This document shows positions 50,202 to 58,409 of a stretch of 64,000 nucleotides of DNA, one piece after another. How positions within the stretch are numbered: the first letter of the stretch is position 1; the number at the start of each line of letters is the position of its first letter. The position numbers were made by a program, and so were the translations under genes. Origin of the DNA: Novosphingobium sp. (GTDB lineage: Bacteria > Pseudomonadota > Alphaproteobacteria > Sphingomonadales > Sphingomonadaceae); the NCBI RefSeq assembly GCF_030699305.1, contig NZ_JAUYNB010000008.1, positions 62,001-126,000 on the forward strand, read 5' to 3'. The notes beneath the pieces are model-generated. The model had not been told where the DNA came from. It searched no databases and saw only the letters and a program-made list of their open reading frames with translations.

Positions 50202-51485
50202 GTGGGGAATCAGGTTAAGCTGGGCACCGGCAGCGGTGAGTTTGAATATCCCGTGCTTTCGGGCAGTGTCGGTCCGGATGTGGTCGATATTCGCAAGATG
50301 TATGCCCAGACGGGCATGTTCACATATGACCCCGGCTTTACCAGCACCGCCAGCTGCGAAAGCGCGCTGACCTATATCGACGGCGACGAAGGCGTGCTGC
50401 TGCACCGCGGCTATCCGATTGGTCAGCTGGCCGAAAATTCCAGCTTCATGGAAGTCAGCTACCTGCTGCTGAACGGCGAACTGCCGAGCGCCGACGAACT
50501 GGTGAAATTCGAAACGACGATCACCCGTCATACCATGCTGCATGAACAGCTGGCCACGTTCTACAACGGGTTCCGCCGGGATGCCCACCCGATGGCGATC
50601 ATGTGCGGCGTCGTCGGCGCATTGTCGGCGTTCTACCATGATTCGACCGACATTTCGGACCCGACCCACCGCAAGGTCAGCTCGCACCGCCTGATCGCCA
50701 AGATGCCGACGATTGCGGCAATGGCGTACAAGTATTCGGTCGGCCAGCCGTTCGTCTATCCGGACAACAAGCTGTCCTACACCGGCAACTTCCTGCGCAT
50801 GACCTTCGGCGTTCCGGCCGAAGAGTATGAAGTGATCCCGGCAGTCGAACGGGCGATGGACCGGATTTTCATCCTTCATGCCGATCACGAACAGAACGCC
50901 TCGACCAGCACCGTGCGCCTGGCCGGTTCGTCGGGCGCGAACCCGTTTGCCTGCATCGCGGCGGGCATTGCCTGCCTGTGGGGTCCGGCGCATGGCGGCG
51001 CGAACGAAGCCGCGCTCAACATGCTCAAGGAAATCGGCACGCCCGACAAGATCCCGCACTATATCGAGCGCGCGAAAGACAAGAACGATCCATTCCGCCT
51101 GATGGGCTTTGGCCACCGCGTCTACAAGAACTACGATCCGCGCGCGACGGTCATGCAGAAAACCGTGCGTGAAGTGTTCGACGCGCTGAAGGTCACCGAT
51201 CCGCTGTTCGAAACCGCGCTGCGGCTGGAAGAGATCGCGCTGAACGATCCCTACTTCGTCGAAAAGAAGTTGTTCCCGAACGTCGATTTCTATTCGGGCA
51301 TCATCCTGTCGGCGATCGGCTTCCCGACCACGATGTTCACCGCGCTGTTCGCACTGGCGCGGACTGTTGGCTGGGTGGCGCAGTGGAACGAAATGATTTC
51401 CGATCCCGGCCAGAAGATCGGCCGCCCGCGTCAGCTTTACACCGGCCCGACGCAACGCGATTACATCGACGTATCGAAGCGTTGA
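50202..51485 (+). CDS. gltA: Citrate synthase
   Basis: 427 aa from a GTG start with GGAG about ten bases upstream. Type II hexameric citrate synthase: [31 protein letters not shown] (catalytic His), [15 protein letters not shown] and [11 protein letters not shown] (catalytic Asp). It condenses acetyl-CoA with oxaloacetate, the entry to the TCA cycle. A strong hairpin follows. Confidence 0.97.
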
Positions 51486-51645: not shown

Positions 51646-53124
51646 TCAGCCCTCGGCTGGGCCGGTTTCGTTTTCGCGCCCGTCACTTACGGAAGACCCG
51701 TCACTTACGGAAGAATCGTGCCCCGTGGTCGGGGCCTGCGCCAGCAGATCGGCCGGCACGTCCAGTATGAACCGTGCGCCCTGACCGGGGGCGCTGTCGA
51801 TGCTCAGGTCACCGCCCATCGCCCGCGCCAAGCGGCGGGAAATGTACAGGCCCAGACCGGAGCCACCTTCATCGCTGCGGCCCAGCCGTTCAAACTTTTC
51901 AAACACCCGCGCCTGCTGGTCCGGCGACAAACCCGGCCCCTGATCGGCAACGATCAACCGGGCGCGCGCGCCCGCATCTTCCAGCCTGATCCAGATCTGC
52001 GAATTGTCCGGTGAATAGCGGATGGCGTTGCCAACCAGATTGAGCAGCACCTGCAGCACGCGCCGAAATTCGGCAATCGCGGGCAGATGCTCGCCCAGAC
52101 GGGGGGCGTCGATCGTGATCCCGCGTTCCTGCGCGCGGACCCCCAGAATGCCTGCGGCGCGGCGGGCCACGTCGGCCAGATCGATCCGGTCCGGCGCGGT
52201 GTTGAAATCCTCGGCCTCAACCACTTCAAGGTCGGCCAGATCCTCGACCAGTGCCAGCAAGTGCTGTCCGGCTGCGGCGATATCAGCGGCATACTGGCTG
52301 TATTCATCCGCCAGCGGACCGGCCAGCCGGGTCCGGATCGTTTCGGCATTGGCAATGATCCGCGCGATCGGCTGGCGCAGCACGGGCGCGATATCCCGGC
52401 CGACCAGCCCTGGCCCGTTCTGCGGCATGACATTGGCCGGAAGCACGGCGGACGGTCGCGCAATGGCCGGAAGCGGCTGCTGGGCGGTCAGGCAAAGTTC
52501 AAAGCCCGCCGGTTCGCCGCCGGGTTGCAGTTGCGGAAACAGGCTGGCACGCCAGACACGCGGCGACGCCGGGATATCGAGCGTTGCCCCATCGAGCAAC
52601 CGCCAGTGCAGCGGCTGGCGATGCGCACTCCCGGCGATGGAGACGAAATCGGTCCACGGCTGGCCTGCGCCTGCGCGCATCGCGTCAGCCAGGTCAGCCA
52701 GATCCGCAGCGCTTGAGTCCACCGCCAGCACCCGCTGCTGCGCGTCGAGCCGGGCCACCAGCTCCGCCACGGCCTGATCAATCGCGGCGCGGCGCTCTGC
52801 CGCTGCCTGCATATCCTCTGGCGGAAGCGGCACCGCCTGCCAGCTGCGCAAGGCAATCGTGCAACTGCCACTGGCCGTATCCGGCGTGACTTCAACCCAT
52901 GCGGTGATGGCGTCCTGCCCGTCGGTGGCCTTGATCGTGCGGGCCAGCTTCAGTCCGTATTCGCGCGCCTTGCGGACCACTTCCAGCAGCGCCGGAATCG
53001 CAACGGTGCCCGGTATTTCACCGCCGCAGCGCCGCTGCAGGCCCGCCAGCGGCTCATCCGCGCTGATCAGGCGTCCGTCGCCATCACATTGCGCTTGCGC
53101 CAGAAAGGAACTGTCCGGTGTCAT
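51646..53124 (-). CDS. Histidine-kinase-like protein lacking the phospho-acceptor His
   Basis: 492 aa, no membrane segment. The C-terminal HATPase domain is intact: NLVGNAIRYSP (N box, 362-372), DQGPGLS (394), FEKFERLG and GGSGLGLYISRRLARAMGGDL. In the dimerisation region GRDIAPVLRQPIARIIANAETI aligns with the H box SHELRTPL so that Pro247 replaces the His. The N terminus (1-230) may contain PAS-like folds. Last gene of a four-gene operon starting at 55706. It could bind ATP and signal without phosphotransfer. Confidence 0.8.
   Translation of the reverse strand: MTPDSSFLAQAQCDGDGRLISADEPLAGLQRRCGGEIPGTVAIPALLEVVRKAREYGLKLARTIKATDGQDAITAWVEVTPDTASGSCTIALRSWQAVPLPPEDMQAAAERRAAIDQAVAELVARLDAQQRVLAVDSSAADLADLADAMRAGAGQPWTDFVSIAGSAHRQPLHWRLLDGATLDIPASPRVWRASLFPQLQPGGEPAGFELCLTAQQPLPAIARPSAVLPANVMPQNGPGLVGRDIAPVLRQPIARIIANAETIRTRLAGPLADEYSQYAADIAAAGQHLLALVEDLADLEVVEAEDFNTAPDRIDLADVARRAAGILGVRAQERGITIDAPRLGEHLPAIAEFRRVLQVLLNLVGNAIRYSPDNSQIWIRLEDAGARARLIVADQGPGLSPDQQARVFEKFERLGRSDEGGSGLGLYISRRLARAMGGDLSIDSAPGQGARFILDVPADLLAQAPTTGHDSSVSDGSSVSDGRENETGPAEG
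51679..51714. repeat. 18-bp tandem duplication in the kinase-like gene
   Basis: CCCGTCACTTACGGAAGA occurs twice head to tail, adding an in-frame second SSVSDG hexapeptide near the C terminus of the kinase-like protein. Confidence 0.9.
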
Positions 53125-53127
53125 GGA

Positions 53128-54087
53128 TCAAGCGCCGGGATAAGCGACCGAACGGGCCAGCAGCGCCGCTGCACGGTCTGCCCCCAGCACTTCGAATCCT
53201 TCGGGCAGGCTGACTTCGGGGTGGAGCGAAACGAACTGTTCTTCCACCGCCTGCGGCTTCAGCCCCGAAGCGCGCAGCGCCAGCGCCAGCCGGGCAAGCT
53301 GCCCTTCATTGGTGGAAAGCACCGCCGTATCGCGCGATTGCCCCGATGCCAGCGACAGCGCGCTGAGGAACATCGCCGCTCCGGCATGGGTGATCGACAG
53401 GGCTGCGGTTGCACCGCCGCCCATCCCCGCGATCAACCGCGCAATCAGGCCAAGGCGGCTGCGGCTTTCGTCATATTGCACGCGCACCGCGGTTTCCGCC
53501 GCGACCCGGTGGACTTCCTCTGCCCCCTGATGCGTGCGCAGCGCCTGAAGCGCGGCGTGCAGGAGATCGGCGGGCAGTTCCGAAAGCGGCAACTGCATCC
53601 GCCGCTGGTTCTGCACGAATCGCGCCTGCGCGGCCAGCAGCGCCATGGCGGTCGCCCCGGTCGCGCCATCGGCCGAGGCCACCAGCGCCTGCACCAGCGG
53701 TGACAGCACGGGATCGAGCGCCAGCCGGGCCTGCAACCGCTCGGTCAGTTGCCACTCCAGCGCCAGCGCGTGCGTGTGGGCCAGGAATGCCGGATCGCTG
53801 ATGAAACCATAGACCATCGCGTCATAGGCGTCGCCCGGATGGTCCCGCGCATCGGGTTGGCCAGCCGCTGCGCCAAGCGCATCCAGCAACTGCCGGGCGA
53901 CATCGTGCATCATTCCGCGCACCCGCGCGATGATCTCGTCACTGAACAGCGAATGGTCATCATTCGCCAGCAAATGGCGCAAGATCGGCGCGATCGTTCC
54001 GATCAACGCATCGCCATGCGCCAGATCTTCCCTGAGGGCGGCTTCCACCTGCGGATTGGCCGAAACGTTGGCAATGGTGTCATTCAT
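53128..54087 (-). CDS. Conserved helical protein of unknown function
   Basis: 319 aa, Ala/Leu-rich and predicted mostly helical by eye. I do not recognise a family with confidence; the helical repeats slightly recall DUF2336 proteins. Segments such as DAYDAMVYGFISDPAFLAHTHALALEWQLTERLQARLALDPVLSPLVQALV and VLSTNEGQLARLALALRASGLK look conserved in style. It lies three bases upstream of the kinase-like gene and 23 bp after the membrane protein gene, so the products likely act together. Confidence 0.75.
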   Translation of the reverse strand: MNDTIANVSANPQVEAALREDLAHGDALIGTIAPILRHLLANDDHSLFSDEIIARVRGMMHDVARQLLDALGAAAGQPDARDHPGDAYDAMVYGFISDPAFLAHTHALALEWQLTERLQARLALDPVLSPLVQALVASADGATGATAMALLAAQARFVQNQRRMQLPLSELPADLLHAALQALRTHQGAEEVHRVAAETAVRVQYDESRSRLGLIARLIAGMGGGATAALSITHAGAAMFLSALSLASGQSRDTAVLSTNEGQLARLALALRASGLKPQAVEEQFVSLHPEVSLPEGFEVLGADRAAALLARSVAYPGA

Positions 54088-54110
54088 TGGCCTGCCATAG
54101 CGCGCCTTGG

Positions 54111-55382
54111 TTAAGGCGGCGTTAGCCGCGCCTTCAGGCTGGAAACCAGAATTCCGCCAGCGGCCAGCGCCAGCGCCGCGAGATGAACCGCCTCGCTACC
54201 CACGCCCGCCATCACGGCCACGGCCAGGCTCAGCCCCACAACGGCCCGATCCTTGAGCCAGACGGTCCACCGATGATCGATCGCGGTCGGCAGAATGCGC
54301 AGCAGCGCGAACAGCATCAACGGCGGAAACAGGCGGTCCGGATCAAACGGCGCCCCGGCCGGCGCGGCATTCCAGGCCAGCAGCGCAACCATGATCCCAT
54401 CGATCAGCCAGCCATAAGCGGCGCGGCGGCTCAGGCCGATGCCGCCGCGATCCGCCGCATCGCTCTGAATGCGGGCCAGCATCACGGCCGCCTCGCGCAC
54501 GATCCACCCCAGCGCGCAGCAGATCAGGCCAAGCGGAACCAGCCCGAACCAGCCCGATCCAAGCCCCAGCACGGCCAGCACGACCGCCGCGATAACCACC
54601 GACCCCGCCCCGCTTCCGGCATGGAGCAGGCTGGGGCCGTACGCGTGAACCGCGCTGCGGGCGATCCCGCGCGACAGGTTCAGCGCTTCCCCGCCCCCGG
54701 TACGCTGCCTGATCCACACCGGTTCAAGCGCCTGGGCGTCCGCCTCACTGCGGATCAGCGACCAGAATACCCCATCCTGACCGAGCGGCGGCAACGGACG
54801 CTGGGGGATTCCGGCTTGCAGGGCGATGCGTTGCAGCGCTGAAATGGCGTCACAATCCGCCGGCAGTTCCGCCATGCGTTCAACCAGCCTGCCCGGCACC
54901 CGCATGGCCGCAGCGGCGGCGTGGTTGAGGTCAATCCGTTCAAACCCGGCGGCCAGACCTTGCTCGATCGGCTGCACCAGCACGCCCTGCCCTTGCCCCA
55001 ACAGGGCCACCGCTTGCGGCGCAGACACGAACAGGCCGTCGCCCAGCGCGATCAGTTCATCCGCAGCGGTCACCAGACCCAGCAACGCCCGGGCACCGTG
55101 GATCACGTGAAAGCTGACCCCCGCAGCTTCGGCTTGATGTTGCAACCCGGCGACTTCGGGTGACATCCCGGCGGCCAGACAGATCACCCGTTCGCATTGC
55201 AGCGCCAGCGCCAGCGTCAGTTGCTGCTGAGCAACACTCAGGCCGCCAACGCGCAGGAACGCACGCGGAGGGCCACTGGGCGCAGTTGGTTCAAGCAGGG
55301 AAAGCAGGGCGACCCGCAGCGTCTTTCTCCGCGCATTTCGGGAACAGACGCGCGTTGTAGGAGTTTGGCATCGCGATGCCAA
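54111..55382 (-). CDS. Membrane protein with N-terminal nucleotidyltransferase-like domain
   Basis: 423 aa. The only in-frame start near the N terminus is a TTG at 55382 with no clear ribosome site, so the start is uncertain. Residues 25-200 (PPRAFLRVGGLSVAQQQLTLALALQCERVICLAAGMSPEV) resemble a GT-A/nucleotidyltransferase fold with a glycine-rich entry. About five membrane segments follow from residue ~265. This layout recalls enzymes making activated lipid precursors, but no CDP-alcohol transferase motif is visible. Second gene of the Hpt-like to kinase-like operon. Confidence 0.7.
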   Translation of the reverse strand: MASRCQTPTTRVCSRNARRKTLRVALLSLLEPTAPSGPPRAFLRVGGLSVAQQQLTLALALQCERVICLAAGMSPEVAGLQHQAEAAGVSFHVIHGARALLGLVTAADELIALGDGLFVSAPQAVALLGQGQGVLVQPIEQGLAAGFERIDLNHAAAAAMRVPGRLVERMAELPADCDAISALQRIALQAGIPQRPLPPLGQDGVFWSLIRSEADAQALEPVWIRQRTGGGEALNLSRGIARSAVHAYGPSLLHAGSGAGSVVIAAVVLAVLGLGSGWFGLVPLGLICCALGWIVREAAVMLARIQSDAADRGGIGLSRRAAYGWLIDGIMVALLAWNAAPAGAPFDPDRLFPPLMLFALLRILPTAIDHRWTVWLKDRAVVGLSLAVAVMAGVGSEAVHLAALALAAGGILVSSLKARLTPP

Positions 55383-55400
55383 GCCAAAGCTGCGCGGCCA

Positions 55401-55706
55401 TCACGCGGCGGCGGAAAACTCATCCAGGAATGCCTGAATCCGGCGCACCACAGTCGGTTCGCCGGGGGCTGCATCCAGCGCCTCATCCGCCAGCAGGATC
55501 AGCGGTTCGGCATGGAAACTGGCAGCCAGTCCCTTCAGCCGCATCGCCGCCATCTGCCAGTTGCCATCGCAGCGCGAGCGCCGCAGCAGATCGACCTGCC
55601 GTCCAAGGCTGTCGATAAACGCCAGCCGCAGCTCGGCAAACAGCGCAGAATCCTCGCCAGCAGCAGCAGCAAGGGTCGCGTCAAGGGCTCCAGATTCGTA
55701 TGCCAT
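55401..55706 (-). CDS. Hpt-like domain protein lacking the phosphorylated His
   Basis: 101 aa. The helical hairpin of a histidine phosphotransfer domain is suggested by MAAMRLKGLAASFHAEPLILLADEAL, where the canonical AHxLKG reads AMRLKG, placing Met55 where the phosphorylated His belongs. The flanking Lys-Gly and Ala-rich turns remain. It starts the leftward operon and is separated from the divergent coiled-coil gene by 69 bp. Confidence 0.75.
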   Translation of the reverse strand: MAYESGALDATLAAAAGEDSALFAELRLAFIDSLGRQVDLLRRSRCDGNWQMAAMRLKGLAASFHAEPLILLADEALDAAPGEPTVVRRIQAFLDEFSAAA

Positions 55707-55775
55707 GCAAACGGGTTTAGGCGAAACTGGTTAAACTGGGGTTTATCCACAAGCGGTCCGTGGTAAGCTGACGTC

Positions 55776-58409
55776 ATGTCCGGGGGATCACGCATCATTG
55801 CGATCGACGCAGGTGGGGAAAATACCCCTCCTGATGAACAACTTGCCAGCAATTCAGCGGCTGTTTCGGTGCAAGAAGACGAACCCGAATGGGGCCCCGA
55901 ATGGGCCGAGGATATGCCGCAGCGGGCGCCGCGCAACTGGTTCGGCCTGATCGCCGCCGCTTTGGCCGTGGCCGCAATCGCGGGCTGGAGCGCGCTGTTC
56001 TTCATCGTCAACCGCGCGAATCTGAGCACTGGCGGAACACCCGCGCAGTGGTCTGGCTGGATTCGCGACTGGTCGATTCCCGTGCTGCTGGTCGCCGCAC
56101 TCTGGCTGGTCGCCATGCGCAACAGCCGCCGGGAGGCTACGCGCTTTGGCGATGCAGCGCGGTTGCTGGCCAATGAATCCACCCGGCTTGAGCAGCGCCT
56201 GATCACCGTGAACCGCGAACTGAGCCTGGCCCGCGAATTCATTGCCGCGCAGTCCCGCGATCTGGAAGCGCTGGGGCGGATGGCGGGTGAACGCCTGTCC
56301 GAACACGCCGCGCAGCTGGCCAGCCTGATTCAGGACAACGGCACCCGGATCGACACGATCGGCACGGTCAGCGAGGCCGCGCTCGACAACATGGAGAAGC
56401 TGCGCAGCCAGCTGCCCGTGATCGCCAGTTCGGCCAAGGATGTCACCAACAACATCGGCAACGCCGGCCGCACCGCGCACAGCCAGCTGGAAGACATGGT
56501 TTCGGGCTTCAACAAGCTCAACCAGTTCGGTCAGGCGAGCGAACGGCAGGTGCGCCAGCTGCGGGAACTGGTCGATCAGACGCTGGCTGAATTCACGCGT
56601 CAGGCGGACCAGATGGAAACCACCGCCACGCAGCGCTTTGCCGCGCTGCATGACAGCGGAGCGGAGTTCCGGACCCAGCTCGAAACCGCCGAAGTCGAAG
56701 CCCTCGGAGCCGTGCGCAGCCGCGCGCAGGCGCTGCATTCGGAACTGGATGCCGCGCGCGCGCTGCTCGATAGCCATGAAGCGGAAAGCCTCACCTCGCT
56801 GCGCTCACGCCTGACTGCGGTCCGTGATGAAAGCGCCGCGATTGCCCGCAGCCTGCGCGACGGCGAAGGCGCTGCGACCGACGCCTGGCACGAGGCAGTC
56901 ACCCGGCTTGAAACCGACCTGCGCGAAGCGATCGACCGGGTTGGCGCGATTGATGAAAAGGCGATGGAATCCGCCCGCGCCCGGCTGGCGCAACTGGCGG
57001 ACGAGGCTGAGACGGTCGACAAGCGGATGGCCGAACGCGATCAGCTGTTCAGTGACGAGCTGGAGCGCCGCCAGACCGATATGGACGCCCGTCAGACGGC
57101 CTTCATCGCTGCACTGCGCGCGCAAATGGGCGAACTTGACGCCGAACTGACCGCTCGTCAGGCCGAGCATGAACAGCAATCGCGCGCACTGGTTGACCAT
57201 ACCGAAACGATCAGCAGCCAGTTGGGCCAGTTCAGCCAGCGAATGCGCGAAATCGCCGAACATGGCGGTACCGCCAAGGCGGACATCGCCGCCGCGCTGG
57301 AAACTCTGACGCAGAACCTTGCCGCCAGCCGTCAGGCGCTGGCCGGCACGGACAGCGCCATTGCCGGATTGACCGACGACAGCGTGCGCTTGCTTGAGCT
57401 GATTCAGGCCAGCATGCACCATTCCGCCGAGGAATTGCCCGCCGCGATCCGCATCAGCGATGCCCGGCTGGCCGAGCTGGAAACCCGCGCACTCAGCCTG
57501 CGATCAACGCTGGAGGTTGCCGAAAGCCGCGGCGAAGCGCTGGGCGGCTATGTCCGGCAAAGCAAGGCCGATCTGGCCGATGCGGTCGGCACGGCTGAAC
57601 ACCTGCAAGCCGCCATGCACGCCCAGTCCACCGCCCAGGCGGCCACTCTGACGCAGCTGCACAGCGCGCTGGAAATCGCCCGCAGCGCGAGCGAGGCGCT
57701 GGCCGAACAGGCCCAGACCGAACTGCGCGGTGCCATCGATGCACTGACCGGTTCGGCGCGCGATGCCGTGGCCGGGATCGAGACGATGAGCGCGGCGGCG
57801 ATTGCCGCGCTGGCTGACCGGCTGGGCGAAGCCAGCGGAGCGGCGATCGAACAGGCGATGCGCACCCGCGCCGCTGAAATTGCCGGACAACTGGAACAGG
57901 CCGCCGCCCACGCTGCCGGGGTCAGCCGCGAGGCGGCGGTGCAACTGCGCGATCAGCTGGCGAAGGTGAACGAACTGGCCGGGAACCTGGAACGCCGGGT
58001 CGCCCAGACCCGCGCGCGGGCCGAAGAGCAGGTCGACAACGATTTCGCCCGCCGGGTGGCGCTGATCACCGAATCGCTCAATTCAAACGCCATCGACATC
58101 GCCCGCGCGCTGGACAGCGATGTGACCGACACCGCCTGGGCCGCCTATCTGAAAGGGGACCGGGGCGTATTCACCCGCCGCGCGGTGCGGCTGATCGACA
58201 ATCCCGAAGCCAAGGCGATTGTCGCCCTGTATGAGGGGGACCGTGATTTCCGCGATCATGTCAGCCGCTATATCCACGATTTCGAAGCGATGCTGCGCCA
58301 GCTGCTGTCCACCCGCGATGGCCACGCGCTGAGCGTGACGCTGCTATCGTCGGACATGGGCAAGCTCTACGTCGTGCTGGCGCAAGCAATCGAGCGGCTG
58401 CGCAACTAA
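55776..58409 (+). CDS. Large membrane-anchored coiled-coil protein, TipN-like architecture
   Basis: 877 aa. Two membrane segments (about 54-78 and 99-114) precede more than 700 residues of heptad-rich coiled coil with many Ala, Glu, Gln and Arg. The C terminus from about 790 is more globular (DTAWAAYLKGDRGVFTRRAVRLIDNPEAKAIVALYEGDRDFRDHVSRYIHDFEAML). Length and layout match Caulobacter TipN, a birth-scar polarity marker. No chemoreceptor signalling tip is visible. The TipN link is architectural inference. Confidence 0.65.
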   Translation: MSGGSRIIAIDAGGENTPPDEQLASNSAAVSVQEDEPEWGPEWAEDMPQRAPRNWFGLIAAALAVAAIAGWSALFFIVNRANLSTGGTPAQWSGWIRDWSIPVLLVAALWLVAMRNSRREATRFGDAARLLANESTRLEQRLITVNRELSLAREFIAAQSRDLEALGRMAGERLSEHAAQLASLIQDNGTRIDTIGTVSEAALDNMEKLRSQLPVIASSAKDVTNNIGNAGRTAHSQLEDMVSGFNKLNQFGQASERQVRQLRELVDQTLAEFTRQADQMETTATQRFAALHDSGAEFRTQLETAEVEALGAVRSRAQALHSELDAARALLDSHEAESLTSLRSRLTAVRDESAAIARSLRDGEGAATDAWHEAVTRLETDLREAIDRVGAIDEKAMESARARLAQLADEAETVDKRMAERDQLFSDELERRQTDMDARQTAFIAALRAQMGELDAELTARQAEHEQQSRALVDHTETISSQLGQFSQRMREIAEHGGTAKADIAAALETLTQNLAASRQALAGTDSAIAGLTDDSVRLLELIQASMHHSAEELPAAIRISDARLAELETRALSLRSTLEVAESRGEALGGYVRQSKADLADAVGTAEHLQAAMHAQSTAQAATLTQLHSALEIARSASEALAEQAQTELRGAIDALTGSARDAVAGIETMSAAAIAALADRLGEASGAAIEQAMRTRAAEIAGQLEQAAAHAAGVSREAAVQLRDQLAKVNELAGNLERRVAQTRARAEEQVDNDFARRVALITESLNSNAIDIARALDSDVTDTAWAAYLKGDRGVFTRRAVRLIDNPEAKAIVALYEGDRDFRDHVSRYIHDFEAMLRQLLSTRDGHALSVTLLSSDMGKLYVVLAQAIERLRN

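Follow-up and report, generated by a model that had tools for sequence, protein, structure and literature searches.

A conserved sphingomonad operon encoding kinase-, Hpt- and enzyme-like proteins without catalytic residues, divergent from a TipN-like coiled-coil gene

The window analysed here, a 64,000-nucleotide stretch of Novosphingobium sp. (assembly GCF_030699305.1, contig NZ_JAUYNB010000008.1, positions 62,001 to 126,000), contains a block of five genes in which a kinase, an Hpt protein and an enzyme-like membrane protein, all without catalytic residues, are encoded in one conserved operon beside a candidate polarity scaffold. Open reading frame (ORF) calls on the window place four co-directional minus-strand genes, transcribed in the order HPT, NTP, HEL and HK, divergent from a plus-strand coiled-coil gene, COIL. 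The four-gene operon and the 877-aa membrane coiled-coil protein lie where the initial annotation had put them, and the 69-bp promoter gap it described between them is confirmed by measurement. The features are as follows, with L numbers used below as our handles for the loci and genomes compared.

51646-53124, minus strand: HK, pseudo-histidine kinase; 492 aa, PAS-PAS-DHp-CA, Pro247, N/G1/G2 intact
53128-54087, minus strand: HEL, probably a divergent DUF2336 (PF10098) helical protein; 319 aa, assigned via the PF10098 matches of relatives and alignment
54111-55319, minus strand: NTP, pseudo-IPCT-DIPPS; 402 aa from a CTG start, assigned by fold model, profile match and motif scan
55401-55706, minus strand: HPT, pseudo-Hpt; 101 aa, Met55 at the phospho-His position
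55707-55775, no strand: divergent promoter region; 69 bp, footprint over relatives
55730-55745, plus strand: CtrA-like box GTTAA-N7-TTTA; overlaps the COIL -35
55764-55769, plus strand: -10-like TAAGCT, read from sequence and kept in relatives
55776-58409, plus strand: COIL, TipN/GPR-type coiled-coil protein; 877 aa, two N-terminal transmembrane segments, coiled coil, C-terminal domain
50202-51485, plus strand: citrate synthase gene, the usual neighbour of the block

HK matches the Pfam profiles HATPase_c (4.8e-28) and HisKA (5.6e-7), and its predicted structure (mean pLDDT 85.6) comprises two PAS-like folds, a DHp and a CA domain; no transmembrane segment is predicted from its sequence. The "kinase-like protein" of the initial annotation does have histidine-kinase domains, but the loss of its phospho-accepting His had been missed. 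Pro247 (codon 52384-52386) occupies this position: the hidden Markov model alignment sets "ISHELRTP" of HK853 against "LAPVLRQP" of HK, with Pro247 on the phospho-His. A residue other than His stands in this column in 90/92 homologues, and Pro in 69/92. The kinases of two Zymomonas-like genomes (L196, L197) carry the motif DHSFKP, where His is followed by Ser and not by Glu or Asp. A further kinase beside the scaffold gene, that of L198, was rejected as an HK homologue, being an unrelated canonical histidine kinase.

The rest of HK is well kept. The N, G1 and G2 motifs of the ATP site are intact in the window and almost perfectly preserved in homologues, and conservation across 28 aligned sequences peaks in the DHp docking helices (domain means ~0.75 for DHp, 0.73 for CA and ~0.5 for PAS), with L249, P252, I256, A258, N259, A260, Y275, Y278 and A279 identical in 28/28. 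The dN/dS of HK is 0.103, comparable with the 0.068 of citrate synthase. Such a pattern would be expected if a protein had retained receiver binding and lost the ability to phosphorylate itself.

Pseudokinases such as DivL are two-component parts that have turned into readers instead of writers, and to our knowledge few such examples have been described. DivL (4q20) is among both the structure and the sequence matches of HK. DivL has neither autokinase nor phosphatase activity and binds DivK~P via its docking interface, with its PAS domains adding specificity (PMC4211667). HK shares with it the PAS domains, a DHp domain without the phospho-His, a retained CA domain and a conserved docking face. 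HK differs in having two PAS-like domains, in the position of its gene within an operon next to that of a scaffold, in carrying Pro where DivL has Tyr in place of the His, and in having no predicted transmembrane segment or membrane anchor; because of these last two differences it is not DivL by definition.

HPT has likewise lost its phospho-acceptor. It was initially described as Hpt-like, and its sequence does align with His-bearing Hpt relatives, with a weak match to PF01627 (Hpt; 14.2 bits, below the cut-off of 24.6), but the absence of the phospho-His had gone unnoticed. Met55 (codon 55542-55544) stands at this position in the window, and the His is absent from 71/73 HPT proteins of the family (throughout this text, probably Sphingomonadaceae sensu lato), replaced by Met, Leu, Gln, Trp or others. 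HPT is under strong constraint despite the lost His: its dN/dS against the nearest relative is 0.041, as low as that of citrate synthase (0.068) or RNase J. Elsewhere in the order, other families have Hpt genes next to the coiled-coil homologue, with the His (AHKLKG-type) present in those that were aligned. Four loci from some of the order's other families (L062, L063, L065 and L066) have an ORF of ~170-200 aa divergent from the coiled-coil gene, and the two of the four that were examined (L062 and L065) are response-regulator receivers, not Hpt proteins.

The two proteins might instead form a non-canonical phosphorelay, with HK using ATP to phosphorylate another residue or partner and HPT employing a different acceptor. 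The preservation of the N/G1/G2 motifs goes beyond the need of a non-binding protein and would fit such a relay, as would Cys46-Asp47-Trp50 of HPT, which is conserved within the genus. No alternative Hpt His is conserved, however; a move of the phospho-site to the neighbouring "FH" His (His65 in the genus) was considered and rejected, as this residue is Gly in many other genera. Moreover, DivL itself has no autokinase activity although it retains a CA domain (PMC4211667). We regard phosphotransfer of this kind as improbable.

The third protein to have lost its active site is NTP. Its mechanical ORF (54111-55382, minus strand) encodes 423 aa, and a likelier start is the CTG at 55317-55319, which is preceded by an AGGAG-type ribosome site and gives 402 aa. 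Among 38 relatives scored, the start is CTG, TTG or GTG in 32 and ATG in 4; in L046, the in-frame stretch from the preceding stop to the CTG contains no ATG, GTG or TTG. The fixed non-ATG start suggests that NTP may be expressed at a low level.

The AlphaFold model of NTP (pLDDT 91) has a GT-A-fold nucleotidyltransferase-like domain and a C-terminal CDP-alcohol-phosphotransferase-like membrane domain. Its best PDB match, over the whole length, is 4mnd, the bifunctional IPCT-DIPPS membrane protein of Archaeoglobus (Foldseek E 2.4e-9; TM-scores 0.65/0.62), and a sequence profile independently matches NTP to 4mnd with an E of 1.2e-7. The initial description as a nucleotidyltransferase-like membrane protein is thus borne out at the level of fold, but it had overlooked the loss of both active-site signatures: motif scans of the window protein found neither a GxGTR-type nucleotide-binding loop nor the CDP-alcohol signature D-x2-D-G-x2-A-R-x8-G-x3-D-x3-D. 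NTP also differs from the Archaeoglobus protein in being shorter, bacterial and linked to signalling genes.

The fold match bears on a further alternative, an envelope phospholipid module in which NTP would make a phospho-inositol-type lipid and the other products would regulate it. The whole-protein match to 4mnd favours this view, as do homologues in Sphingosinicella, which keep DGVDGKLAR. Against it, the motif region of 4mnd aligns to non-matching residues of NTP, from which the nucleotide-binding loop is also missing, and the full signature occurs in 0/102 family homologues scanned, with only the partial D-x2-D-G-x2-A-R core kept in three (L173, L200 and L206). A lipid-synthesizing role therefore seems very improbable.

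The remaining operon protein, HEL, was initially called an unknown helical protein. A likely family can be given for it. Profile searches give no PF10098 match for HEL of the window itself, whereas the equivalent genes of two divergent genomes (L100 and L101) match PF10098 above the cut-off, at 1.4e-19 and 2.6e-23, and on the strength of these matches and an alignment HEL is probably a divergent member of DUF2336. A literature search on DUF2336 found no paper. In the Pfam profile search, the window proteins NTP, HEL and COIL had no significant match.

COIL recalls TipN, the new-pole scaffold of Caulobacter crescentus, in which two N-terminal transmembrane segments are followed by a long cytoplasmic coiled coil. 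COIL has two N-terminal transmembrane segments by hydropathy (residues 55-81 and 96-114), followed by a coiled coil that is long as judged from the sequence, and by a conserved C-terminal domain of ~190 aa (about residues 690-877). The TipN-like layout claimed initially holds, and at 877 aa COIL is close to the 882 aa of TipN (PMC13170164). This likeness is one of length and layout, and COIL differs from TipN in that its gene is divergent from a four-gene operon. The C-terminal domain occurs in 155/387 alphaproteobacterial genomes (~40%), in ORFs of ~450 to 2,750 aa, including ORFs of 1,926-2,121 aa in one alphaproteobacterial family. These long ORFs match, by size alone, GPR, the 2,115-aa growth pole ring protein of Agrobacterium. 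COIL is less than half the length of GPR, and the apolipoprotein-like region, a feature of GPR, is only a sub-threshold match in COIL. Matches of COIL to ZorA and Abi_2 were weak, below the cut-off, and were rejected as coiled-coil noise. No paper on TipN in sphingomonads or Sphingomonadales turned up in a full-text search.

The shared regulation proposed for the operon and COIL would fit a conserved box in the gap between them. The 69 bp carry GTTAAACTGGGGTTTA at 55730-55745, and the pattern GTTAA-N7-TTTA recurs in 21/60 upstream regions, where base shuffles would give 0.145, with a one-base variant in many of the others. The CtrA consensus is TTAA-N7-TTAA, of which the box (TTAA-N7-TTTA) has 7/8 bases at the exact spacing. 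The -35 that the box overlaps belongs to a promoter with its -10 (TAAGCT) ending 6 nt before the ATG of COIL; because the -10 lies so close to the ATG, a leaderless mRNA is predicted. Three of the six other genomic GTTAA-N7-TTWA sites (L291, L293 and L295) lie upstream of two PilZ-like genes and one ribonucleotide reductase gene, identities that were read by eye from the translations.

The block recurs throughout the family, a large one whose members live in soil and water. It is kept in genus members with complete contigs (in L038 no Hpt ORF was called, and homology is present at the DNA level) and in 20 further family loci, distant ones and diverse genera included. It also occurs, with varying completeness, in 40 more loci selected because they were divergent or had no kinase match. 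All five genes are present in 43/79 tabulated family loci. The recurrence in genus relatives and diverse family genera shows that the arrangement is not due to chance. The initial annotation had looked to conservation of the five-gene arrangement in Sphingomonadales, and to whether the genes would separate in relatives; they stay together. Its interpretation of the locus as a coherent cell-pole or envelope system is partly supported overall, while the arrangement and the loss of the three active sites are well supported.

In Sphingosinicella genomes the same place is taken by a His-bearing Hpt together with the NTP homologue that carries DGVDGKLAR; neither a kinase nor a DUF2336 gene was found beside this Hpt-NTP-scaffold arrangement. 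Two family loci (L195 and L203) also have a His-bearing Hpt, with kinase, DUF2336 and NTP not detected, and in no locus of the set does a His-bearing Hpt occur together with the pseudokinase. Most simply, the block would descend from an Hpt-NTP-scaffold unit to which the pseudokinase and DUF2336 genes were added and in which catalysis was lost, a loss that would be traceable because relatives with intact residues survive.

The strong conservation of three products despite their lost active sites suggests a non-catalytic signalling complex. We propose that this conserved block is a sphingomonad module encoding a DivL-like, non-catalytic reader complex on a TipN-type scaffold under cell-cycle control. 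The scaffold gene would be co-regulated with the operon, probably by a CtrA-like cell-cycle regulator, and the HK, Hpt and IPCT-DIPPS-like products would have given up catalysis while keeping fold and sequence constraint. The PAS-PAS pseudokinase may act as DivL does, with its DHp docking face reading the phosphorylation state of a response regulator without phosphorylating it. As a decoy or adaptor that transfers no phosphate, the pseudo-Hpt could bind either the same class of receiver domain or the pseudokinase itself. The pseudo-IPCT-DIPPS protein may anchor the complex in the membrane, with the DUF2336 protein serving as a helical adaptor, and the complex would be set at the pole by the TipN-like protein. 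Such a non-catalytic signalling complex appears to be undescribed so far, and the module offers a concrete entry point to sphingomonad cell polarity and cell-cycle control. A more specific and rather doubtful version is a "dead phosphorelay". Here the pseudokinase and pseudo-Hpt, recruited with the pseudo-lipid-enzyme to the TipN-type scaffold, would read a cell-cycle response regulator without phosphotransfer and fill the role of DivL in sphingomonads, having derived from the active Hpt and active-looking IPCT-DIPPS-like protein visible in Sphingosinicella.

We give the reader complex a probability of roughly 45% and no higher, since the scaffold gene and the operon are separable or lost independently. 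Several observations weigh against it. Some genera have lost most of the operon yet keep the coiled-coil gene, which occurs without HK in 17/79 loci (a set partly chosen for undetected HK). Conversely, seven loci (L173, L174, L176, L178, L179, L180 and L182) have HK with no coiled-coil gene within the ~17 kb fetched. As each is found without the other, neither strictly needs the other. In the two Zymomonas-like genomes (2/92) the aligned HK residue is His. CtrA control is offered as a hypothesis because the genome as a whole shows no enrichment of the CtrA-like pattern, with 7 sites against 12 for the reversed control in 3.36 Mb.

The same separability would be expected if the block were a conserved neighbourhood only, that is, an independent signalling or envelope operon sharing a divergent promoter with a scaffold gene of a different process. 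The coiled-coil gene is present in 21/21 family genomes chosen mostly for lacking a kinase match, and many genera without the kinase also lack DUF2336 and the pseudo-Hpt, leaving the dead NTP beside the scaffold gene; the housekeeping neighbours, citrate synthase and RNase J, are syntenic too. Yet NTP remains divergent from the coiled-coil gene once the other three operon genes are gone, the adjacency of Hpt and scaffold genes is older than the family, as the Sphingosinicella loci and those of other families of the order indicate, and the conserved box sits in the shared promoter. On balance we consider mere neighbourhood unlikely and favour the reader complex.

In most relatives the block is bounded by citrate synthase and DUF1467/RNase J genes, flanks that the coordinates of the initial annotation leave out. 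Citrate synthase, the product of the usual neighbour, affects the cell cycle in Caulobacter, where a screen with tipN mutants identified it as a regulator of that cycle (PMC7083601).

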